A stretch of DNA of 64,000 bases, taken from Maribacter aquivivus (GTDB lineage Bacteria; Bacteroidota; Bacteroidia; Flavobacteriales; Flavobacteriaceae). A program made the translations under genes and the position numbers. Position 1 is the first letter of the stretch. Each line of letters starts with the position of its first letter. The notes under the pieces are model-generated. The model did no database searches, was not told the DNA's origin, and was given only the letters and a program-made list of their open reading frames with translations. This document shows positions 37,975 to 60,216 of the stretch, piece after piece. The DNA is taken from NCBI RefSeq assembly GCF_900142175.1, contig NZ_FQZX01000002.1:124001-188000 (forward strand), read 5' to 3'.

Positions 37975-39735
37975 ATGTCAATTTCAAAAACTAAGGATTT
38001 ACTTGGTCAATTATCTCAACTAGAAAGAACAGTTAGCGAATTCTCTTTTGAAGAATTAAATGCTAATGAAGCTAAAGAGTTAAAAAGCTCTTTTAATATT
38101 TTTCGATCTAGTTTAGAAAGACATATTTATACACCTAAATCGGATCAAAGTGTTTCTGAAAAAACAGAGGTTCCTGCAATAGAAAATCAAGAGATTTCAG
38201 AAAAGCAGTTTATAACTCATGTTAGTCACGAAATTAGAACTCCGTTGAATAGTATAATTGGGTATGCAAATCTTTTAAAAGAAGAAAAGCTAACTCGTGG
38301 TCAACATAAAAAAGTAGATGCCATACAATTTGCATCAAATACACTTTTGAAACTGATCAATGAAGTTTTAGAATATTCTAAATTATCTTCTGGTAACAAC
38401 AATTTTGAAACGGTAGATTTTAATCTACATAGTTTACTTAAAGATGTTATGTTCTTATGTGAAACATTGATTTTAGATCGCAAAATAGAGCTATTAATAG
38501 ATATCGACGAGAACGTACCTAAAATTATTAAGGGGGATCCATCTAAGCTATCTCAAATACTACTTAACCTTTTAGGTAATTCAGTAAAGTTTGTACATCA
38601 AGGATTTATAAAATTAGAGGTTTTTACTAAAGAACAAATTAATAATGAATGTCTTATAGAATTTTCTGTTGCCGATACTGGTATTGGCATCTCTAGTGAA
38701 AAAATTAAGACCATATTCAACAGTTATACACAAGCAGAAAATGATACTTCTAAAAAATATGGTGGTACAGGACTTGGATTGACCATAACTAAAGAAATTA
38801 TAGATAAGCTGAACGGCGAAATAGAAATTGATAGCACTATAGATAGCGGAACAACTGTTCGGTTTAGAATGCCTTATGCTATTGGTAACGCCACTACGGC
38901 TTCACGTAAATCTTTAAAGAAGGATACAAAAAAGAAGAATAGCGGATTATTAGCAGGTACTGAGATATTGATATTTGAAGATAATGAAATGAACCAACAT
39001 TTAATTGTTGAGCAATTGACAAAATGGGGCTGTAAAGTTCATGTAGATGTTGATTTAGACAAAGGCTTGTACTTACTGTCTTCTAGAAAAATTGATCTTA
39101 TTTTGATGGATTTAAAAATGCCAAATCAAAACGGATTTGAAGTGTCTAAAGAGATACGAAAACATAAAAACAAAAAAGTAAATTCAGTTCCAATTATTGC
39201 CTTTAGTGCAGATTTTACCGAGCAAGACAGTAAAGAATGTAAAGAAATAGGAATTAATGATTTTCTATTGAAACCCTATACCCTAGATGATTTAATGGCC
39301 ACCATTGTAAAGAATAAAAAACTAAATACAAATACTGCAGATTTTGCCTCAATACTTCAAAAACCAATGATAGAATTAAAAGAAACCACGGTTGTAAATC
39401 TAGATAGTCTGATGAAAGATTGTTTCGGAGAAATTGATATGCTAAATGAATTAGTAAAGTTGTTCAAGTTGAACGCAATTGAGTTCATTGGTAATGTGAA
39501 AATTCATCTAAAGACTGAGAATTTAAAGGAAATTGCTTTATCTGCACATAAATTAAAAGCTGGTTTTGCAATGATAAAAGCTGACGGCATGCGAAAGTTA
39601 ATTGTTGAGCTAGAGAATAGTTGTAAAACAAATCAACCTGAAAAAGTAAAAGAGTTGTATAAAATTTTCTTGACCGATTATCCATTATTAGAAGAGAATT
39701 TGAGCAATGAACTAGAAAAAATGAATAAAAAGTAA
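37975..39735 (+). CDS. Cytoplasmic hybrid histidine kinase (HisKA-HATPase-REC-HPt)
   Basis: A 586-residue protein with no transmembrane helix. A short N-terminal helical region (1-75) precedes HisKA with His85 in FITHVSHEIRTPLNSIIGY; HATPase (about 185-300) has NLLGNSVKF, DTGIGIS and YGGTGLGLT. The receiver (about 328-448) has Asp379 in LILMDLKMP and Lys in LLKPYT. The HPt domain (about 475-580) has His525 in SAHKLKAGFAMI. A full internal phosphorelay is therefore possible. A stand-alone receiver gene follows after one base, its likely final acceptor. It leads the glycan operon. Confidence 0.94.
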   Translation: MSISKTKDLLGQLSQLERTVSEFSFEELNANEAKELKSSFNIFRSSLERHIYTPKSDQSVSEKTEVPAIENQEISEKQFITHVSHEIRTPLNSIIGYANLLKEEKLTRGQHKKVDAIQFASNTLLKLINEVLEYSKLSSGNNNFETVDFNLHSLLKDVMFLCETLILDRKIELLIDIDENVPKIIKGDPSKLSQILLNLLGNSVKFVHQGFIKLEVFTKEQINNECLIEFSVADTGIGISSEKIKTIFNSYTQAENDTSKKYGGTGLGLTITKEIIDKLNGEIEIDSTIDSGTTVRFRMPYAIGNATTASRKSLKKDTKKKNSGLLAGTEILIFEDNEMNQHLIVEQLTKWGCKVHVDVDLDKGLYLLSSRKIDLILMDLKMPNQNGFEVSKEIRKHKNKKVNSVPIIAFSADFTEQDSKECKEIGINDFLLKPYTLDDLMATIVKNKKLNTNTADFASILQKPMIELKETTVVNLDSLMKDCFGEIDMLNELVKLFKLNAIEFIGNVKIHLKTENLKEIALSAHKLKAGFAMIKADGMRKLIVELENSCKTNQPEKVKELYKIFLTDYPLLEENLSNELEKMNKK

Positions 39736-39736
39736 G

Positions 39737-40102
39737 ATGGGAAAAAGTGTACTATTAGCAGATGACGACCAACTTTTAGCCTCTTTATTAAACTTTAGGC
39801 TAAAAAAAGGAGGCTATACAGTACATCATTCCGTTAACGGAAAAGAAGTAAAAGAGTATTTAGAAAATACAATGCCCGACATAATCGTGAGCGATATTAT
39901 GATGCCATATTTTTCTGGTATTGAGCTTATAGATTATGTGCGAAATGAACTTAAATCAAATACACCTATAATTATTATATCATCGGCCGGTAATGAACAG
40001 AACGTTCTCACCGCTTTTGAATTAGGTGCAAATGATTTTATTACGAAACCAGTAAGTCCAACAGAATTATTAGTTAGAATAGCACGAGAAATAAATAAGT
40101 AA
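39737..40102 (+). CDS. Stand-alone receiver (response regulator) protein
   Basis: A 121-residue single receiver domain: acidic pocket Asp9-Asp10-Asp11, phospho-acceptor Asp53 in IIVSDIMMP, Thr/Ser in IIISSAG and Lys104 in FITKPVSP. There is no output domain, so it must act by protein contact or by phosphate transfer. It lies one base after the hybrid kinase gene and 12 bases before the HEAT-repeat gene, so its target is likely one of the glycan-synthesis proteins encoded next. Confidence 0.94.
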   Translation: MGKSVLLADDDQLLASLLNFRLKKGGYTVHHSVNGKEVKEYLENTMPDIIVSDIMMPYFSGIELIDYVRNELKSNTPIIIISSAGNEQNVLTAFELGANDFITKPVSPTELLVRIAREINK

Positions 40103-40114
40103 ATAAGATAAAAT

Positions 40115-42466
40115 TTGTTGATTCCCCCTAATCAAATCAAAATATCGATAATAACTGCACCAGAATTCAATTTAGAATATCTCTGGTGGCTGACTATACT
40201 GTTTTTTGTATTGTCTGTAATATATTTTATTGGTGTATTTATAATCAGAAATAGAATTACATCTACCAATAGTCGAACAAAAAATAAGAAGGTCGAGTTT
40301 TCCCCCATGATCAATGAATTTCTATTCTATGAAGATTCAAATACTAAGGAGGAAAAAATGAATTACTTAAATCTAAAAGTTCAGATTAGAGAATTGATTA
40401 AGAATAATTTCGATAGAGATGTTCTTACAGAGGTTTTGCTTGATTTACGAAAAGATTTATCTGGGCAGTCTCAAGCTGTTTTAATAGAACTTTATACTGA
40501 TTTGGGACTACATCATGACGCTTATGAAAAATTAGGCAGCAGAAAATGGCAAGTAGTTTCTAGCGGAATAGTAGAATTGACCACGATGGAGGTTGATGAG
40601 TCGTATGGCTTAATTATAAAATTCATTAACCATAGGCAAAGTACCATTCGTAAACAGGCAGAAATTGCGGTAGTAAATCTTCGAGAAGAGGGTATTAAAT
40701 ATTTTCTAGATAATACCAAGTTTAAGATTGCTGAATGGCAACAATTGAAGTTGTTAGATGTACTTAGACATAAACCTAATTATAATCCGCCTCAATTCGC
40801 ACTATGGTTGACTTCTACCAATACTCACGTGGTGTTGTTCTCCTTACGCTTGATCAAATATTATAGTCAGAACGGTGCTGAAGAATCTATTATAACGCTT
40901 TTAAAGCATAAGAACCGGGATATACAGGCAGAAGCTATTGAATGCATTAAAGATTTTTATTTTGTGAATGCTTTAATCACTTTAAAATTGGTGTATTCCA
41001 AGACTAGTCATGATATCAAAATAGCAATTTTAGATGCCATTGGTGAATTGGGTACAAAGGCAGAAGTCTCCTTCTTAGAAAATCTGCAATTAACAGAACG
41101 TAATTTTAATATCAAAAGCAAAGTAATAGGTACACTCAACAAAATTGATCCTGAAAGAGTTTTACCTACAAAGAATATTTCTAAGCCAGATTTTTATGAT
41201 GTTAAATGGGATGATGCAATGCAAGAAGAAGAGCATGCAATAATTGACAATCATGAAGATATAGTACTACATAATGGTATTGCAGATGTTTCTACTGAGA
41301 TAGATTCTGAACCTATACTTACTGACGAAACAAGCGAAATATCATCTTCCTTTGAAGAAGAAATAATATCTAAAGAAACTGAAGAGGTAATGAATGAAGA
41401 GTTTGTTAATGAAGAGCACACTGAATTTGAAGCAGAATTGCAACAAAATGGTACAGAGAAGGTCAGCTCTTTAGAAGATATCGATTTAAGTTTTTTACCT
41501 CATATTAAAGAGGAAGAAGCATTAGAGGAAAGACTAGAAAAAACTGGGGTAGTTGTAGACAATGAGCAAGAACAAGATGTAGAAGAAGAATTTACTTTTA
41601 GTTTTCTGCCATTTGTGGTAGAAGAAGATGTTATTGAAGAAGTAACCACTTCTTATGATGATGACGATTTTAAACCATTGTTTGAATTAGACAATGAATT
41701 AATGGGAGAAGTACAAGAAGAAAGTGCTGTTAACCCTCTAGATAATGCTTCTACGAATTTAACTCATGATTTTGATTGGACTACTTTAAATTCAGAAAAC
41801 GAAGAGCGGAATAAAAAAGTCGTTGTTAGTGTAACCGATTCGGCTGAACCTCTTATTTCTTTTGAAAACGATAATGTTTCATTCGCGGCAAACTTTATGC
41901 CTCAAGAAGAGCTTGATGCAATGGTAATGTTAGAAAATATTTCTGAACTGGGTGACTGTCGCGAACTCATATTACTATATCAAATTATAGAAAAAAATAG
42001 TTCTAAAGTGGTTATTGAAAGAGCGAATGAATTAATTCAGAAATTCTCTTATCAATCACCACGACCTAATGAGTTGTTTTCAGATGATAATGACCTTTCA
42101 GAAAGTGTATTTACCGACATTTATAATCTAGCCGATTATGAGACTAAACTTATGCTTATTGGTGAAATAAAAAAGGTAGGTGACGAGAAAGAAATTGATT
42201 TATTGGAAAGCGTTATTCAATCTGAATCAAAAAAACTTGTAAAAAAGGCCACCGAGGCTTTAGAATTTATAAAGTCGCAGTTATTAGAACTTGATGATAA
42301 ACCTAGTAGCACTTCAGACGAAGATTCTATTTTAGATGTTGCTTTTGAGTTAGAATCAAATAATTCTATAAAATATAAGGGAACAGTTTCAAACGAAAAT
42401 GGTTCTACCTTATTTGATCAGTTATGTTCCATGTCTAACTCCTTATACAGAAAAAAGGATGGATAG
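40115..42466 (+). CDS. Membrane-anchored HEAT-repeat protein
   Basis: A 783-residue protein. A transmembrane helix (about 22-45, LWWLTILFFVLSVIYFIGVFII) is followed by cytoplasmic HEAT-type helical repeats (about 80-335), a long acidic low-complexity linker (about 360-590) and a second HEAT pair (about 610-690). The start must be TTG 40115 or 40118, because TAA lies in frame at 40109 and the first internal ATG comes after the helix. It sits between a receiver gene and the glycosyltransferase gene, whose ATG overlaps its end, so a scaffold linking phospho-signal and synthase is likely. Confidence 0.82.
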   Translation: MLIPPNQIKISIITAPEFNLEYLWWLTILFFVLSVIYFIGVFIIRNRITSTNSRTKNKKVEFSPMINEFLFYEDSNTKEEKMNYLNLKVQIRELIKNNFDRDVLTEVLLDLRKDLSGQSQAVLIELYTDLGLHHDAYEKLGSRKWQVVSSGIVELTTMEVDESYGLIIKFINHRQSTIRKQAEIAVVNLREEGIKYFLDNTKFKIAEWQQLKLLDVLRHKPNYNPPQFALWLTSTNTHVVLFSLRLIKYYSQNGAEESIITLLKHKNRDIQAEAIECIKDFYFVNALITLKLVYSKTSHDIKIAILDAIGELGTKAEVSFLENLQLTERNFNIKSKVIGTLNKIDPERVLPTKNISKPDFYDVKWDDAMQEEEHAIIDNHEDIVLHNGIADVSTEIDSEPILTDETSEISSSFEEEIISKETEEVMNEEFVNEEHTEFEAELQQNGTEKVSSLEDIDLSFLPHIKEEEALEERLEKTGVVVDNEQEQDVEEEFTFSFLPFVVEEDVIEEVTTSYDDDDFKPLFELDNELMGEVQEESAVNPLDNASTNLTHDFDWTTLNSENEERNKKVVVSVTDSAEPLISFENDNVSFAANFMPQEELDAMVMLENISELGDCRELILLYQIIEKNSSKVVIERANELIQKFSYQSPRPNELFSDDNDLSESVFTDIYNLADYETKLMLIGEIKKVGDEKEIDLLESVIQSESKKLVKKATEALEFIKSQLLELDDKPSSTSDEDSILDVAFELESNNSIKYKGTVSNENGSTLFDQLCSMSNSLYRKKDG

Positions 42467-43889
42467 TGAACTATTTGGTGTGGTATTGGAATACATCAAT
42501 TTTGTATTCTTTGTTTTTACCTTAATTCTGTTTGTACTGTTTTCATTAATGGCGTATTTCTCTACAAAGAACTCTCTTCATTATAGAAATAAAAACAGCT
42601 TTACAGATATCACCAAAATAATGGCTTCACCTTTGGCGCCAACAATCACTATTATAGCTCCTGCTTATAATGAGGGGTTAACCATTGTAGAAAACATTCG
42701 TTCGTTATTATCACTTCAATATGTCAATTATGATGTAATGGTGGTAAACGATGGTAGTAAAGATGATACTTTACAAAAATTAATAGATTCTTACGACTTA
42801 GAGAAAATTGATGTTGAAATGGATCCCGACTGGAAATCTAAACCAGTTCGCGGTATCTATAAATCAAAAAATAGGGCTTTTGAAAAGCTTACCGTTGTAG
42901 ATAAAATGAACGGTGGTAAGTCTGATGCTTTAAATGCCGGTGTTTCTTTATCTACCAGTAAATATGTTGGTTGTATTGATGTAGACTGTCTTTTACAACC
43001 AGATGCTTTATTACACGTTGTCAAATCATTTTTTCAAAGATCTAAGAAAAGAGTGATTGCGGTGGGCGGCGTAATTCGTGTAGCCAACTCTTGTATTATA
43101 CAAGGTGGTCAGCTTGAAGAAATTAGACTGCCTACAAATTGGTTGGCTAGATTTCAACTTTTAGAGTATACCCGTTCCTTCATTTTAGGTAGAATGGCGT
43201 GGGGTAGAATTGATAGCCTTCTTATTATTTCTGGTGCTTTTGGTTTTTTTGAACGTGAAATTGCATTAGCGGTGGGTGGGTATGATACCGACACTGTTGG
43301 TGAAGACATGGAAATTGTCTTTAAGATGCGTCGGTATATGCATGATAGAAAAGAACCGTATACGATAGAATATATTCCTGATCCATTGTGCTGGACCGAG
43401 GTTCCTGAAGATCTTAATATTCTTGTAAACCAAAGAGACCGTTGGGCTCGTGGTAACTTAGAAACATTGTTCAAGCATAAAGACATGTTGTTCAATTCTA
43501 AATATGGTAGACTTGGTTTATTAAGTTATCCATATTGGTTTTTCTATGAGTGGCTTTCTCCGTTATTAGAGTTTTTTGGCTTTTTTACCATTTTACTTTT
43601 TGCCTACTTAGGAATTCTTAATTGGGAATTCTTTTTCATGATTACGTTGGCGATATTTCTGTTTTCTATTATGATTTCATTCTATGCCATTCTTTGGGAT
43701 GTGTATTCATATAATCAATACCGAAAAACAAAAGACATTTTAATATTAATGGGTCTGGCAATTCTAGAGCCTTTCATTTTTCACCCAATAGTAGTGTACG
43801 CTGCAGTTAGGGGTAACTATAAAAAATTATTCAAAATAAAATCTGGTTGGGGATCCCAAGTTAGAAAAGGTTTTGCAAAAGCATCATAA
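42459..43889 (+). CDS. Processive family 2 glycosyltransferase (PgaC/BcsA-like)
   Basis: A 476-residue polysaccharide synthase. An N-terminal transmembrane helix (about 10-33) precedes the GT-A domain with all processive motifs: Asp98 in VVNDGSKDDT, DxD at 174-176 (CIDVDCLL), GED at 281-283 and QRDRW at 325-329. Three or four helices follow (about 350-440), forming the channel. It resembles poly-N-acetylglucosamine and hyaluronan-type synthases; the sugar is unknown. ATG 42459 with AAAAAAGG before it is chosen over 42399, which would overlap the HEAT gene more. It overlaps that gene by 8 bases. Confidence 0.93.
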   Translation: MDSELFGVVLEYINFVFFVFTLILFVLFSLMAYFSTKNSLHYRNKNSFTDITKIMASPLAPTITIIAPAYNEGLTIVENIRSLLSLQYVNYDVMVVNDGSKDDTLQKLIDSYDLEKIDVEMDPDWKSKPVRGIYKSKNRAFEKLTVVDKMNGGKSDALNAGVSLSTSKYVGCIDVDCLLQPDALLHVVKSFFQRSKKRVIAVGGVIRVANSCIIQGGQLEEIRLPTNWLARFQLLEYTRSFILGRMAWGRIDSLLIISGAFGFFEREIALAVGGYDTDTVGEDMEIVFKMRRYMHDRKEPYTIEYIPDPLCWTEVPEDLNILVNQRDRWARGNLETLFKHKDMLFNSKYGRLGLLSYPYWFFYEWLSPLLEFFGFFTILLFAYLGILNWEFFFMITLAIFLFSIMISFYAILWDVYSYNQYRKTKDILILMGLAILEPFIFHPIVVYAAVRGNYKKLFKIKSGWGSQVRKGFAKAS

Positions 43890-43895
43890 AAAGCA

Positions 43896-46277
43896 ATGAA
43901 CACAAGTCAAATAGATAGATATTCCTTAAAGCAGTATACCCGGCTTATGATATCCTTTTTCGGATGTTTGTTCGTGTTGACGCTTTTTCAATACGGCATG
44001 CTGTATTACAAAGGGGTTATCGATACTATTTTTTCGGTAAGCTTTTTAAAGGCTATTGTTCATCAAATAGGTTTTACTGCATTAATGGGTATTGTGATGG
44101 TATTTCCTTTCAATTTTTGGGAAAACTTGCGCTCCAAATACGGCTTTAACCTTGTCTTTGTTTTATTGAGTTTTGTACTCATATTCGAAGCACTACTAAC
44201 TGCATATTACTGTACTACTTTAGTGCCTTTAGGCTCAGATATTTTAGGATATAGCTATTCAGATATGAAAATAACGATAGCTAATTCTGGCGGATTCATG
44301 ATTTCAATTTATCTGTTAATAGGTATATCTATATTAATAAGTCTATTTTTAATACTGTACAGAGTCACTTCTAAAGTCTATCATCGTATTAGCAAAATGT
44401 ACCCGTTTACTATTGTTTTGTTCAGTCTTTTTATGGCTTCTTTATTTACAGACGGTAAACCTATTAATCAGAATAAAGTACAATACCTGGCTGTTAATGT
44501 ATACAACACAAGTACCGAAGACAATTCGTATACCTCAAATGAAGAATATCCTTTGGTGCAAAGCGCAAATGTAGAAAATGTGTTGGGTGAGTATTTTCAG
44601 CTAAAAGAAGAGAAACCCAATATCGTCTTTATAATGGTTGAAGGTTTAGGTAGGGATTTTGTTGGGGAAGGTGCCGAGTACGGCGGTTTCACTCCGTATC
44701 TAGATTCTCTAACCACAAAATCATTATACTGGGAAAATTTCCTGAGTAATACCGGTAGAACTTTTGGAGTGTTGCCATCATTATTAGGCTCATTGCCTTT
44801 TGGCAAAAGCGGATTCATGGAACTTGAAGAATATCCAAACAAACTTACCATGTTCAGCGTTCTTAAAAATAATGGGTATCATACGTCATTTTATCAAGGC
44901 ACCAATAGTTCTTTTGATAAGGTAGATCGATTTCTAACTAGTGAGAATGTTGATTTTGTATTAGATAAATCAGGATTCGGAAGTAAATATCAAAAACAAG
45001 CTGAAGATGCCGCTGGTTCTTCTTGGGGATATCCTGATATGGAATTGTTCAAGAAAAGCCTAAGTTTTGAAAGAAGTGAAAATCAACCACGCTTAGAGGT
45101 GTACATGACTATTAGTACGCATGAGCCTTTTATTCCACCTAATCAAGATTTATTTGAAGGTAAAGTAAAAAATATATTAGCAAATGGTGATTTTGACTCA
45201 AGAGTAGAGAAAATCATTGAAAAAAATGATAACGTTTTTGCTACACTATTGTATACCGATGATGCTATAAAATGGTTTATGCAATCATACAAGACGCAGC
45301 CAAATTACGAGAATACTATTTTTATAATTACTGGCGACCACAGGCTTATACCAATTCCACAGCGTAATAATATTAGCCGTTTTCACGTGCCTATGATTAT
45401 GTACAGCCCAATGTTGAAAACGACTCGTAAAATGAGTTCTGTTTCTTCACATTTTGATGTTACTCCGTCTATATTGGCTTTGCTATCCAATTCTTACGAA
45501 TTGAAAATGCCTAAAAAGGTGGCGTGGATGGGTGGTGCACTTGATATGGAAACTGCATTTAGGTCCACAAAGAATATTCCGTTGATGCGTAATAAGAATG
45601 AATTGAAAGAATATATCAGTGGAGAAAAACTCTACACCGATGGCGATATCATGGAGCTTGATGAAGATATGAATATCAGTTCTGCTTTTGGCGGTGGCGC
45701 TATTGAATCTACTTTAGAACGATTTAAATCTGTCAATCATTACGTTACTACAGAGAACAAGATAATTCCTGATAGCTTGGCAATATTCACGATTCAAAAA
45801 GAACAATTTACGGATAGTGAAACGGTATGGCTGAACAGTGTTTACGATGGTAAAGATTCTGACAAGGGATATTTTAAGGCGAGGGATTTAGCATGGAATA
45901 AAAAATGGGACAAAGCCTTGTTACTATGCCGTTATAACCTTTCTGGTGCTCCTAGTCATATAGATACTAAAATATTAATGGGAAGAGTTAATTCATGGCA
46001 AGGTAACCATGAAAAGGCTGCGGAGATATTACAAGAATGTATTTCTATTAATCCCAATTATATAGATTCTTATGCTGCGCTTTTCGATGTTTACTATTGG
46101 TCAGATAAATTAAAAGAAGGTTTAGCGCTAATTGATAAGGTTGAAGCAAATAGTTCTAGTGCCAATGAAATTGCAGATAAAATTTCTAGGGCACGAACAA
46201 TTGCAAGAAATGCCGGTATTGAAGTTCACAAACCAAAACAAGAAGAACCTGCTAATACTATTGCATCCATCAAATAA
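43896..46277 (+). CDS. LTA-synthase-like sulfatase-fold transferase with TPR tail
   Basis: A 793-residue membrane protein. Five transmembrane helices (about 15-37, 50-72, 85-108, 133-155 and 168-185) precede an alkaline-phosphatase-fold domain: Glu249 in IVFIMVEGLG, Thr289 in SNTGRTFGVLPSLLGS (the nucleophile position of LtaS) and the metal motif ITGDHRLIP. Relatives (LtaS, OpgB, EptA) move phosphoglycerol or phosphoethanolamine to glycans or lipids. Residues about 660-785 are TPR-like helices, an unusual addition. It lies 6 bases after the glycosyltransferase and overlaps the YaiO gene by one base. Confidence 0.88.
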   Translation: MNTSQIDRYSLKQYTRLMISFFGCLFVLTLFQYGMLYYKGVIDTIFSVSFLKAIVHQIGFTALMGIVMVFPFNFWENLRSKYGFNLVFVLLSFVLIFEALLTAYYCTTLVPLGSDILGYSYSDMKITIANSGGFMISIYLLIGISILISLFLILYRVTSKVYHRISKMYPFTIVLFSLFMASLFTDGKPINQNKVQYLAVNVYNTSTEDNSYTSNEEYPLVQSANVENVLGEYFQLKEEKPNIVFIMVEGLGRDFVGEGAEYGGFTPYLDSLTTKSLYWENFLSNTGRTFGVLPSLLGSLPFGKSGFMELEEYPNKLTMFSVLKNNGYHTSFYQGTNSSFDKVDRFLTSENVDFVLDKSGFGSKYQKQAEDAAGSSWGYPDMELFKKSLSFERSENQPRLEVYMTISTHEPFIPPNQDLFEGKVKNILANGDFDSRVEKIIEKNDNVFATLLYTDDAIKWFMQSYKTQPNYENTIFIITGDHRLIPIPQRNNISRFHVPMIMYSPMLKTTRKMSSVSSHFDVTPSILALLSNSYELKMPKKVAWMGGALDMETAFRSTKNIPLMRNKNELKEYISGEKLYTDGDIMELDEDMNISSAFGGGAIESTLERFKSVNHYVTTENKIIPDSLAIFTIQKEQFTDSETVWLNSVYDGKDSDKGYFKARDLAWNKKWDKALLLCRYNLSGAPSHIDTKILMGRVNSWQGNHEKAAEILQECISINPNYIDSYAALFDVYYWSDKLKEGLALIDKVEANSSSANEIADKISRARTIARNAGIEVHKPKQEEPANTIASIK

Positions 46278-47584
46278 TGAGAAAAATATATTTACATATC
46301 ATTCTTTTGATTCTATTAACCAGCGTATTTCGCGTCAGTGGTCAAGATGTTACGGGTAATTTCGATACTGCATATGCATTGGCATATGAAGGCAAAACCA
46401 ATACAGCACATAATATGCTGTATTTAATGATTAATAAGCCTGCTACAGATATTGATACTTCAATATTATGGGCGAGTACGTTAAGCTGGCGTGGTGATTA
46501 TGATTTAGCACGTGCTGAATTCAATGCTATATTATCAACTACTAAGAATAATAGAGAGGTTTGGATTTCTGCGGTTAAAAACGAACTGTATGCAAAAAAC
46601 TATGCTACAGCATTGGGACTGTCCAATAAAGGTTTAGTGCAGATAGAAAATGATAAAGAACTAATAAGGCTTAAAGCTATAGCTACTGAAGGTGTTAGTG
46701 GTTTGCAGTATGCAGATGATGGTTGGTATAATGTAGATAGTGCTGTGAAAACGAAACTAGTAACAGGAAAAAAACAAAAACCAACAGTAGCGAAGAATAT
46801 TGAAGATAAGAATGAAGAATTGGAAAGAAAAACACCGGTTACAGAAGAGAAGTTAAAGAACTCTGTAATGGTAAATAGTTCCGTAACTGTTTTTGACCAG
46901 CGTTTTGATCCCATTACCACATCAAGTATTGCTTATAAAAGACAGACTCCCTTTGGGTCTATTATTCCAAGAATTAATAATAGTAATAGAGTAGGTAAAA
47001 ACGGTATTCAATTAGACCTAGATCTGTACCCAAAAATTGCAAAAGGCTTCTACGCTTACGTCAATTACGGTTATTCAGAATCAGATCTGTATCCTAATCA
47101 TAAGGTTGGTGGCGATATTTACTACAACCATAAAAGTGGTTTAGAATTCTCTGGCGGTGGTAGATTTATAAACTTTACAACTAGAGATATAAAATCCATT
47201 ACCAACTCAATAGGCTATTATAAGGGCAACTATTATTTCTCGTTACGCTCATATATAACACCTGAGTCTAATAATCTCACTAGGGTCTCGGGTAACTTGT
47301 TAGTACGTAAATATTTAAAGGATGCTGAAAATTATATGGGCTTAAATGCAGGTTATGGCTTTTCACCGGAGTTGAGACAATTTACTTCGGGCGATCAATT
47401 GTTGGCAGAAACACTACTGTATATAGAATCGCAACGATTAAGTTTTGAATATCAATTCACTAGTAAGAATAATTTAAGTGCTTACAGAACTAATGTGGGT
47501 GTTTTGCGTCAAGAACAATCTTTTGATCCTGGCAGTTATTTTTATTCTATCTCTGCAGGTTTAACCTATGAGTTTAATTTCTAG
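46277..47584 (+). CDS. YaiO-family TPR / outer-membrane beta-barrel protein
   Basis: A 435-residue exported protein. A signal peptide (about 1-22) leads into TPR-like helices (about 25-140), a charged linker (about 150-195), and a YaiO-type barrel (about 200-435) with strands such as GIQLDLDLYPKIAKGFYAYVNYGYSESDLYPNHKVGGDIYY and a terminal YEFNF. In enterobacteria yaiO lies near a glycosyltransferase gene, and TPR/barrel proteins export polysaccharides. Here it probably carries the product of the upstream synthase through the outer membrane. The start overlaps the previous stop (TAATG). Confidence 0.88.
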   Translation: MRKIYLHIILLILLTSVFRVSGQDVTGNFDTAYALAYEGKTNTAHNMLYLMINKPATDIDTSILWASTLSWRGDYDLARAEFNAILSTTKNNREVWISAVKNELYAKNYATALGLSNKGLVQIENDKELIRLKAIATEGVSGLQYADDGWYNVDSAVKTKLVTGKKQKPTVAKNIEDKNEELERKTPVTEEKLKNSVMVNSSVTVFDQRFDPITTSSIAYKRQTPFGSIIPRINNSNRVGKNGIQLDLDLYPKIAKGFYAYVNYGYSESDLYPNHKVGGDIYYNHKSGLEFSGGGRFINFTTRDIKSITNSIGYYKGNYYFSLRSYITPESNNLTRVSGNLLVRKYLKDAENYMGLNAGYGFSPELRQFTSGDQLLAETLLYIESQRLSFEYQFTSKNNLSAYRTNVGVLRQEQSFDPGSYFYSISAGLTYEFNF

Positions 47585-48866
47585 ACTTCATAGCAGGTAT
47601 CCACTTATCGGCATACATTCCATAAACCAATCCCAACTCATTATCATAAACATATTGCTCATCTTTACCTGTATCGAAGTTTACGTTGAAGACATATACT
47701 TTAATACCTGCGTCTCTTAATTGTATCATCAATTTTTTCTGGCTTGCGATTATTCTTCTTGATACCGCTACGTGACTAACATTATTTACTCTAAGAAAAT
47801 TTACTTTGTCTCCTTTAATCGCCATTAATGGCTCTTGAGAAATCATTGTATGTATACCGTGCTCAGAAGCCTTTTCTACTGCCATAACACTAAAGAGTTC
47901 CATAATAAGACGGTCTTTATCTATAAATGCATCAGCGAAGGCAATTGGATCATTAACCTTATCTGTAATTAGGGTTGCATCAGGGTGATTCTTAAACCAA
48001 GCATTTATTCCATCCATATCTAAGGTAGTATAATCACCATAAATTTTCTGTTCCATAAATTGGGCGTGAGTAGGAGGTAAGCTTCCCGTAAAATCTGTAA
48101 AACGTGCCCACATATTCCAATCATGTGCGGCTACCAATTTTCCGTCAGATGTTTCTATAATGTCCAATTCAAAATTCCGGAAACCCTTTTTATAATTTTC
48201 GTCTAATGCGTGTTTAGAGTTGGTAGATTTTACGCCGTTAATCTCTCCACCTGCATGGGCAATGTACCTATCTATATTTGATTCAAATTCATACACCTCT
48301 TTTGGAAAGTAAATTGCTGTACTGCCAATGCTTGATGTAATACTTAAGGTTTCTGTGACGGAATTATCATTTACCTGTTCAACGATAACACCATTTATAT
48401 TATGCATAGTATATGCTTGTCTTCCTTTTAATGCGCTTAATTGTAGAAAACCTAAATCAGATAACTGTTTTTCAAATTCTGATAATTGTGCTGCTGCAGA
48501 ATCATGTGCCAATATTGCAAAAATTGCATTAGACGCTTTCATCTGAGTTAGTACTTCTAATAATTCTTTTACATCTTCTTTACTACCATAAGTGTCAAAA
48601 GTCTTGAACTCAATTTTATTATCGGCTTGTAGATGCACAATAGTTAATCCGCGTTCTATTGATTCGGTTTGTGAGTCGTACGTAAATGTACTTCGCTCAT
48701 GTGTATTAAAACTATGACTGTTTAGTACTAGTTCTATTGAGCTCAAATCTTTAATAGGGAAATCTATCGTATTTACATTCTCGGCTTTTGTCGAAGTCAA
48801 TGTAAAAAGGAAAAGTAATAGATATATAACTTTGAAGTTAAATAGCATAAGGGGGAATCTCTTCAT
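47574..48866 (-). CDS. Exported glycerophosphodiester phosphodiesterase-like protein
   Basis: A 430-residue protein with a signal peptide (about 12-28) and an N-terminal domain of unknown type (about 30-180). The GDPD barrel starts at YIAHAGGEINGVKSTNSKHAL; FRNFELDIIETSDGKLVAAHDW gives the catalytic Glu/Asp and second His. GDPD enzymes release glycerol-3-phosphate from glycerophosphodiesters. The gene faces the glycan operon and overlaps its last gene by 11 bases. Because the operon encodes a phosphoglycerol-transferase-like protein, this enzyme could trim such groups. Confidence 0.85.
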   Translation of the reverse strand: MKRFPLMLFNFKVIYLLLFLFTLTSTKAENVNTIDFPIKDLSSIELVLNSHSFNTHERSTFTYDSQTESIERGLTIVHLQADNKIEFKTFDTYGSKEDVKELLEVLTQMKASNAIFAILAHDSAAAQLSEFEKQLSDLGFLQLSALKGRQAYTMHNINGVIVEQVNDNSVTETLSITSSIGSTAIYFPKEVYEFESNIDRYIAHAGGEINGVKSTNSKHALDENYKKGFRNFELDIIETSDGKLVAAHDWNMWARFTDFTGSLPPTHAQFMEQKIYGDYTTLDMDGINAWFKNHPDATLITDKVNDPIAFADAFIDKDRLIMELFSVMAVEKASEHGIHTMISQEPLMAIKGDKVNFLRVNNVSHVAVSRRIIASQKKLMIQLRDAGIKVYVFNVNFDTGKDEQYVYDNELGLVYGMYADKWIPAMKSRN

Positions 48867-58785: not shown

Positions 58786-60216
58786 TTAAAACTCAATAGT
58801 TAATTGTTCCGGTTCTTTGTCATATTTTTTACCAGATTTTCTCCAAGTCGAAGAACGTCCCTTTTTATCAGGTGTACGTTCTAATAAGCCTACTTCAGCG
58901 AGTTTTACGAATATTTGCTTCATCACATTTTCAGAATCAACCCCGCAGACATCTCGAGCAATTGAATTTGATATTTCTTTATGACTTTCTAGATAACGTA
59001 AAACCATTTCTTCAGGTGAAGCCAGTGGCTCGTGATATATTACAACTTTGACTCCATTGGCTGTTTCTAATACTTCAGGTTCTTTCAGCCGAAGTTTGCG
59101 CATTGCATTAAATGCAGTATTTAAACCTTCTCCGACATCCTTATTTGGAGGATTTGGAAACTTATTAATAATTCTAACAAGTGCTCCATTTCGAGCAAGT
59201 TGTTCATCCAAAATGTTCTGGGGAGTAATATGACCAGGTAATCTACCTGGGCTATGAATTTCAACTCGATTATCAAAAATTATTACCTGTGTATCTGATT
59301 TTTTACTGTAATCCCTGTGAAGAACGGCATTGGTTAAGATTTCATGTATTGCTTCTACTGGATATTTAATTTTTTCCAAGCCCTTCTCACCAAGAATTTT
59401 GATTCCCTCAACTATTTCAACGGATTTGGAAACAGCTTCAGAAATTTGATTGTAGATATCACCTTCAATTGTAATCGGATTAAAAGCTAGAGTCTGACGA
59501 GTACCTTCTTTATCTCTTGTTTTATAGCGGTAAATCTTAATTCCACTTTGCTTCGGTAAAGCTGCTTGTGGTTCTTCTGCAAAAAGAAGTACCCCCGCTA
59601 CAGTTGGTTTGTTAGATTGAATTAGCAATTGTTTTTTTAACCAAGCCTCTGGAGTAGTAGTTGGTATCACTTCTTGAATGAAGTTTTTAATTACATCTGA
59701 TTCCGTGATTATCTCTTTTGGAATATTAAGCACCTGTGTCTCGAACGAAGCGATTCCTTTATCAAATTCAAGTTTTTTAAGAGACTCATGGTCTTTTATT
59801 GGAAGGTTTTGCGCTCCTCTTCGGACATAAGGATGCTTATCAGAAGCATATAGAATTTCTTTGGTCTTGTTAATTTGAATATGTAAAACAAATCCTTTGA
59901 GGTCTGATGTTTTAAAAAACGAAATTGAAATATACTGCTCAAAAGGAAATAGCTCTTGAATAAGTTGAACGTGCGCATTTGCGTCTTCAGGGTCTATAAA
60001 ACCATTCCAATTTCTTTCTTTTGATTTATCCGGTTTCTCAACTTCACCAATCCCTACATATATGTCTCCTCCGTCCGCATTAGCCATGGCAGATATTGTT
60101 TGACTTAGTTTACTAGGTTTAATAGCCTTTGCTTTTAAATCCGTAAAATGACCTTCATGCACTTGAAGAATCTTTGTAGCCTGTGTTGTAGATATTTCGA
60201 AAGTGTCTATTGTCAT
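58786..60216 (-). CDS. AlbA_2/Schlafen-type ATP-binding regulator
   Basis: A 476-residue protein. The N-terminal AlbA_2 domain (about 18-135) has EGHFTDLKAKAIKPSKLSQTISAMANADGGDIYVGIGE and a GFVLHIQINKT strand. A GHKL-like ATPase module follows with AIHEILTNAVLHRDYSKKSDTQVIIFDNRVEIHSPGRLPG (about 290-330). The C-terminus (about 405-460) is a winged helix. Such proteins are DNA- or RNA-binding regulators, and relatives occur in defence islands and mobile regions. The gene is flanked by palindromic repeats (58597-58668 and near 60230-60270) and could have been acquired. Role unknown. Confidence 0.85.
   Translation of the reverse strand: MTIDTFEISTTQATKILQVHEGHFTDLKAKAIKPSKLSQTISAMANADGGDIYVGIGEVEKPDKSKERNWNGFIDPEDANAHVQLIQELFPFEQYISISFFKTSDLKGFVLHIQINKTKEILYASDKHPYVRRGAQNLPIKDHESLKKLEFDKGIASFETQVLNIPKEIITESDVIKNFIQEVIPTTTPEAWLKKQLLIQSNKPTVAGVLLFAEEPQAALPKQSGIKIYRYKTRDKEGTRQTLAFNPITIEGDIYNQISEAVSKSVEIVEGIKILGEKGLEKIKYPVEAIHEILTNAVLHRDYSKKSDTQVIIFDNRVEIHSPGRLPGHITPQNILDEQLARNGALVRIINKFPNPPNKDVGEGLNTAFNAMRKLRLKEPEVLETANGVKVVIYHEPLASPEEMVLRYLESHKEISNSIARDVCGVDSENVMKQIFVKLAEVGLLERTPDKKGRSSTWRKSGKKYDKEPEQLTIEF

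Follow-up and report, generated by a model that had tools for sequence, protein, structure and literature searches.

Exopolysaccharide synthases are usually explained through cyclic diguanosine monophosphate (c-di-GMP), which Proteobacteria sense with parts such as PilZ and PgaC/PgaD. Here we describe an operon of Maribacter aquivivus (Flavobacteriaceae; RefSeq assembly GCF_900142175.1; genome size 4.58 Mb) that encodes a hybrid histidine kinase, a stand-alone receiver, a HEAT repeat protein, a family 2 glycosyltransferase (GT2), a membrane protein resembling LtaS and a YaiO family protein. It lies at positions 37,975–47,584 of a 64,000-nucleotide stretch of contig NZ_FQZX01000002.1 (positions 124,001–188,000, forward strand); this whole stretch is the window. 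An earlier note, made from the letters of the window, had proposed that the operon makes, decorates and exports a glycan under phosphorelay control. From our analyses, a phosphorelay-controlled polysaccharide operon is a well supported prediction that rests on synteny, and we consider it rather probable that the operon encodes synthase-dependent exopolysaccharide machinery and that the phosphorelay sets its activity, with the receiver acting through the HEAT protein and the polymer leaving through YaiO.

Among described systems, Pga/Hms/Ica (pgaABCD) likewise relies on a processive GT2 in the membrane, of the PgaC/IcaA type, and PgaA, a TPR-plus-barrel outer-membrane protein, corresponds in role to the YaiO protein of the window. 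It differs in that no PgaB or PgaD was found among the 8 operon and flanking proteins and 10 neighbours scanned with Pfam, which are part of the open reading frames (ORFs) of the window, and in that the window operon has HEAT and phosphorelay genes instead. The window GT2 is 28% identical to Escherichia coli PgaC over 321 columns; its assignment to the PgaC/IcaA equivalog (TIGR03937) was rejected on score (150.7 bits against a cut-off of 422.3). The E. coli yaiO-yaiX-yaiP-yaiS locus also places a YaiO protein near a GT2 (window GT2 against YaiP: 26% identity over 229 columns), but its annotation shows a deacetylase and an acyltransferase gene that is interrupted, and genes for HEAT, REC or LtaS-like proteins are absent from the 10 kb compared. 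LtaS, LtaP and OpgB share with the fifth protein of the operon an LtaS-type catalytic domain behind a multi-helix membrane part, whereas the window protein has different residues near the donor site, a TPR tail and a GT2 operon as its setting. YejM/PbgA has an LtaS-like fold, works without ordinary catalysis and serves in enterobacteria as a scaffold or regulator. It offers a parallel, at the level of fold, for a clade of degenerate LtaS-like proteins described below. We found no description of the gene set in the open literature, most subscription journals lying outside the search. The accessible parts of one report mention lineage-specific exopolysaccharide clusters of Maribacter dokdonensis without these genes (PMC8072126), and those of another contain nothing relevant to the gene set (PMC12419801).

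Conservation of the gene neighbourhood

Loci came from two sources, a survey of 120 genomes of the family and a genome-wide scan, of whose 414 GT2 relatives the best 80 were used. Neighbourhoods from 31 survey genomes besides that of M. aquivivus, from the 80 named relatives and from the window gave a total of 113 GT2 genes; after removal of three duplicates and of eight genes with less than 3 kb on one side (one being the second copy in locus L081), 102 loci remained. Tally limits were made stricter so as to leave out weak TPR cross-matches between the LtaS-like and YaiO profiles: YaiO was counted above 100 bits, and the LtaS-like tally comprises 57 copies over 300 bits and a short one in L070.

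The HEAT gene lies directly upstream of the GT2 gene at all 102 loci, and 95 of them have a single-REC gene on the GT2 strand at a distance of up to four genes (94 over 75 bits; that of L032 reaches only 23 bits), while no gene of this kind occurs among 538 that lie more than five genes from GT2. Four of the seven remaining loci (L077, L080, L093 and L106) do have a receiver, initially missed by ORF picking; L088 has a REC-Hpt-REC protein and L053 a degenerate receiver in a longer ORF. YaiO occurs within four genes of GT2 at 92 loci, on the same strand at 78 of these, and an LtaS-like gene at 58, where it is fused to GT2 in eight. The commonest same-strand order is receiver-HEAT-GT2-LTA-YaiO (41/102), followed by receiver-YaiO-HEAT-GT2 (17/102). 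In the family survey, GT2 (E<=1e-60) and HEAT (E<=1e-5) occur in the identical 32 of 120 genomes, 31 of which have YaiO (not G030) and 26 the LtaS-like protein (not G007, G021, G030, G031, G042 and G080). Selection on HEAT instead, in 296 genomes of the phylum, gave 46 matches in 40 genomes; among the 30 loci listed, three of them from genomes of the GT2 set, GT2 follows just downstream in all 30 and a receiver lies within 1.5 kb upstream in 24.

The conserved core is thus the receiver, the HEAT protein and GT2, usually with YaiO, and the LtaS-like gene is optional. The synteny that the earlier note expected in flavobacterial relatives, and whose absence was one of the two outcomes it named as refuting, was found, and a chance grouping of the six genes is excluded because the gene order is conserved in relatives. 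Its exact six-gene set is too narrow a definition, since the input kinase, the LtaS-like protein and YaiO vary around the core. Genera with the gene set, among the best 80 of the 414 relatives, include Maribacter, Flavobacterium, Chryseobacterium, Empedobacter, Sphingobacterium, Pedobacter and Chitinophaga. Flavobacterium johnsoniae CI04 (L107) lacks an LtaS-like gene at the locus but has those for the kinase, the receiver, YaiO, HEAT and GT2.

Several variants of the arrangement were observed. Flavobacterium omnivorum carries tandem copies (L081:7895-19428), receiver-HEAT-GT2-LTA-YaiO being followed by HEAT-GT2-YaiO. In genomes G111 (L060, L036) and G100 (L061, L035), the LtaS-like and YaiO genes adjoin each other far from receiver-HEAT-GT2. 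At L060:7845-8999, L061:7691-8869, L117:11698-12909 and L127:12440-13600, YaiO or LTA genes adjoin a gene for a protein of some 390 aa whose N-terminal part has a hydrophobic stretch; these four copies, all outside the clade of the window, are similar by eye, and the one scanned (L060) had no Pfam match. Genes of similar length, known by their length alone, occur in L078, L083, L100, L114 and L126.

Operon layout, synthase and predicted exporter

The operon is a contiguous run of six ORFs (Table 1) with gaps or overlaps of 1, 12, -8, 6 and -1 bases, so that the order and close spacing described in the earlier note are confirmed by the ORF coordinates. The family assignments made there are upheld in outline by Pfam and NCBIfam, and intact catalytic motifs were recovered in the Hpt, receiver, GT2 and LtaS-like proteins, the kinase core being covered by Pfam only. 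The ATG at 42459 was chosen by us as the GT2 start; the mechanical ORF starts at 42399.

Table 1. Coordinates of the operon genes and the associated neighbour in the window
Feature	Position	Strand	Assignment
Hybrid histidine kinase	37975..39735	+	Pfam HisKA-HATPase_c-REC-Hpt (His 525)
Single-domain response regulator, REC, Asp 53, without output domain	39737..40102	+	Pfam
Membrane-anchored HEAT solenoid protein	40115..42466	+	Pfam HEAT_2; model of residues 1-390
Processive-type membrane GT2 synthase, PgaC/hyaluronan-synthase-like	42459..43889	+	Pfam/NCBIfam; Glycos_transf_2 and relatives
LtaS/OpgB-like membrane protein with C-terminal TPR tail	43896..46277	+	PF00884, TPR_19; alkaline phosphatase superfamily
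YaiO family protein	46277..47584	+	PF19413 E=1.8e-60, TIGR04390
GDPD-like protein, ILEI-like N-terminal region, outside the operon but associated	47574..48866	-	Weak GDPD match

The window GT2 shares 100% identity with its counterpart in Maribacter sp. 1_MG-2023 and 98% with the one in M. spongiicola. It contains all residues of a processive GT2 (D, DxD, ED and QxxRW), and D99, D175, D177, E283, D284, Q326, R327, R329 and W330 are invariant in 111 of 111 GT2 rows. GT2-type fold matches of a related GT2-LTA fusion (L086) include hyaluronan and chitin synthases and an archaeal mannosyltransferase. The enzyme is predicted to be a processive synthase that extrudes a glycan.

The YaiO protein consists of a signal peptide (by eye), an N-terminal region and an outer-membrane beta-barrel domain. 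Its scores place it well inside the family (PF19413, 204.3 bits against a cut-off of 23.9; TIGR04390, 172.5 against 32), and the operon copy is the only match in the genome. The presence of such a protein next to the synthase, as claimed in the earlier note, recurs in the relatives, and family and position suggest that it exports the polymer. At L034:3369-6236, a 955-aa protein with several weak YaiO-profile matches follows a divergent GT2 without a nearby receiver.

Scans of the operon gave 48 sigma-70-type promoter sites against 47.6 expected and 2 terminators against 4.8 expected. The flavobacterial promoter pattern was not found upstream of the operon and occurred 3 times across the window, against 3.8 expected. 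Rfam and tRNA scans of the window had no matches. Elsewhere in the window, a protein with SLFN_AlbA_2 and RecG-C-like parts is encoded at 58786-60216 (-).

The LtaS-like protein and its GDPD-like neighbour

The LtaS-like protein has five hydrophobic stretches by eye, and its best PDB sequence matches are VP1736 (3lxq) and Bacillus subtilis LtaS2 (2w8d), with a sulfatase third. Fold matches were obtained for the L086 fusion, a relative of the window protein, whose model has a mean predicted local distance difference test score (pLDDT) of 85.8 and a predicted template modelling score (pTM) of 0.49, so that the placing of its two halves is unreliable; VP1736, LtaP and LtaS come ahead of sulfatases, and PbgA/YejM is also among the matches. 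Identity of the PF00884 protein as a sulfatase was rejected on these scores (TMt of 0.67–0.74 for LtaS, LtaP and VP1736 against 0.40–0.59 for the listed sulfatases, all with the L086 fusion) and on the nucleophile of the window copy, a Thr without the sulfatase motif Cys/Ser-x-Pro-x-Arg. The LtaS and OpgB equivalogs were likewise rejected on score (53.8 of 970 bits and 51.4 of 574 bits, respectively).

The active-site residues of the window copy are intact, with Glu, Thr and Asp-His aligned with those of LtaS2; their roles are taken to be those in Staphylococcus aureus LtaS. Glu249, Thr/Ser289, His409, Asp481 and His482 are kept in 52 of 64 LtaS-like rows (Thr289 as Ser in 7). In the other 12, Arg288, Trp377, His409 and Asp481 are all replaced, yet the gene stays beside GT2. 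These degenerate copies form one branch in a quick, midpoint-rooted tree, with full support (100) in the SH-like approximate likelihood ratio test (SH-aLRT); the clade includes the Maribacter loci L065, L066 and L069, and the window copy lies outside it. In a pairwise alignment, the stretch near the donor site that contacts glycerol phosphate in LtaS differs. The genome of M. aquivivus matches pgsA only below the cut-off (49.3 of 109.1 bits), as do 7 of the 13 control genomes that have a match; a phosphatidylglycerol donor is thus a possibility.

The neighbouring GDPD-like gene is convergent with the YaiO gene and overlaps it by 11 bases. The ILEI match of its product is below the cut-off, and its PDB matches are at E 0.17 or worse. 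Such a neighbour is present at 11 of 14 loci of the intact LtaS-like clade (not L038, L040 and L064) and at none of the 12 degenerate-clade loci, in one of which (L073) the sequence ends before that position. Fisher's test of 11/14 against 0/11 gives 1e-4 with rows that share descent, and the association with the intact clade is suggestive. In Gillisia, a full GDPD (glycerophosphodiester phosphodiesterase) protein is encoded directly after GT2 (L111:10598-12451).

The earlier note had the LtaS-like protein add phosphoglycerol. This was not established, given the optional gene, the sister clade without catalytic residues, the differing donor-site stretch and the sub-cut-off pgsA match, and phosphoglycerol decoration of the glycan is only a possibility. 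A serious candidate, in our judgement slightly short of even likelihood, is that the protein genuinely transfers phosphoglycerol (or phosphoethanolamine) onto the growing glycan and that the GDPD-like neighbour serves as a trimming enzyme. This reading agrees with the leading fold matches of the L086 fusion, the retained active-site set and the eight fusions to GT2. The distribution of the GDPD-like neighbour also fits, including its absence from the one locus of this comparison without LTA (L028), although the loci counted here are related and the tree gives the loss one origin. The Gillisia GDPD protein points the same way, although it has no phmmer match to the window GDPD-like protein. The optional gene and the 12 copies that lost catalytic residues but remain in the operon argue against a transferase, as does pgsA, although that family misses the cut-off in several positive controls too. 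These same retained copies would be expected of a protein that is mainly a scaffold or regulator joining the synthase to YaiO through its TPR tail, which we regard as the more doubtful proposal. The degenerate clade keeps the gene, its position and a TPR tail matched by the YaiO profile, the TPR tail and the YaiO N-terminal region match each other's profiles, and PbgA/YejM is among the fold matches; against this stand the active-site set kept in most copies, and the shorter LTA copies and GT2 fusions that have no such TPR match. The clade with a decayed but retained LtaS-like protein is a natural experiment on enzyme versus scaffold.

Proposed phosphorelay control of the synthase

HisKA, HATPase, REC and Hpt domains and a receiver, with intact His and Asp, are all present in the window. 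The hybrid kinase looks soluble: its N-terminal stretch of about 75 aa has no Pfam domain, no sensor domain was found in the Pfam scan, and no obvious membrane stretch was seen by eye. Across the loci, all 58 Hpt rows scoring above 30 bits retain the His. Of the 102 REC rows above 85 bits, which include three that are not free-standing receivers, 100 retain the Asp. An Hpt profile match lies within four genes of GT2 at 54 of the 102 loci, and an Hpt or hybrid kinase at 61. The input part varies: L040 and L043 keep the kinase N-terminus and Hpt match with a lost or degenerate kinase core, and in L041 the gene is split; a lone Hpt replaces the kinase in L028, L050, L051, L058 and L059; and PAS- or GAF-rich hybrid kinases occur instead in L035, L052 and L086. 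We read this variable input with retained Hpt as a putative Hpt-to-receiver relay with exchangeable input. The phosphorelay that the earlier note tied to GT2 is supported by linkage and by the conserved His and Asp. At L053:6384-6983, the kinase is gone, and a degenerate receiver without Asp and Lys carries a fused stretch that resembles the kinase N-terminus.

The HEAT protein has an N-terminal hydrophobic helix, a HEAT domain, a long, acidic, poorly conserved tail and a second HEAT-like stretch. In the model of residues 1-390 (mean pLDDT 92), a long helix (20-70) precedes a helical solenoid; it starts with a hydrophobic stretch, next to which is a basic one, and by the positive-inside rule the solenoid would face the cytosol.

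That control is not by c-di-GMP, as previously proposed, is in keeping with a family nearly without GGDEF domains: 2 of 120 genomes have a match over the cut-off, one of them (G093) among the 32 with the module, while the module-bearing G104 has a sub-cut-off match; this count covers one family only. The genome of M. aquivivus had no GGDEF match, with 8 of 14 control genomes positive, in a search that covered GGDEF and not PilZ.

In the mechanism we propose, the hybrid kinase would pass phosphate through His, Asp and the Hpt His to the stand-alone receiver, which, lacking an output domain, would dock on the membrane-anchored HEAT protein. The latter would hold or release the adjoining GT2, and the extruded glycan would exit through YaiO. 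The LtaS-like protein may work at the outer side of the synthase, where it would add a lipid-derived phospho-group to the polymer or guide the polymer to YaiO via the TPR tail. The HEAT module would thereby take the place of the c-di-GMP sensing parts of Proteobacteria. Direct phospho-control of the synthase is suggested by linkage.

Several observations weigh against this mechanism. No Hpt or hybrid kinase occurs within four genes at 41 of 102 loci, which implies that in many cases the receiver takes its phosphate from a more distant source, and receivers without the acceptor Asp stand beside HEAT-GT2 in L053 (Ser) and L141 (Thr). L034 has no receiver in 18 kb. Because no REC fusion was found in 109 HEAT or 113 GT2 ORFs, contact between REC and HEAT is unproven, and a Foldseek search with the HEAT domain gave generic repeat folds, the best of 50 matches listed being designed repeat proteins with a template modelling score of about 0.3. 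As to export, YaiO above 100 bits is absent within four genes of GT2 at 10 of 102 loci, in two of which (L035 and L036) it is located elsewhere in the genome, and a BLASTP comparison of the window YaiO with E. coli YaiO and PgaA gave nothing meaningful; the family profile does detect E. coli. The loci without a nearby kinase would also suit a wider phosphorelay with other targets, such as gene expression or gliding, in which HEAT would have a purely structural role as a synthase subunit. Single-domain receivers can serve as relay intermediates, and the position of the receiver varies, with five loci placing it after YaiO. We nevertheless think a wider relay unlikely: a general relay intermediate would hardly be expected to keep to the HEAT-GT2 strand, no more than four genes off, at 95 of 102 loci from several named Bacteroidota families, as the receiver does.

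Phosphorelay control through the HEAT protein may extend beyond Maribacter. A Bacteroidota-wide, post-translational synthase switch without c-di-GMP, in which an Hpt-fed receiver on a HEAT solenoid gates GT2 and many sensors are plugged in, would be undescribed before; we put this forward tentatively, as nearly evenly balanced between right and wrong. If true, it would explain the control of surface glycans in such bacteria and give a marker for finding these operons.

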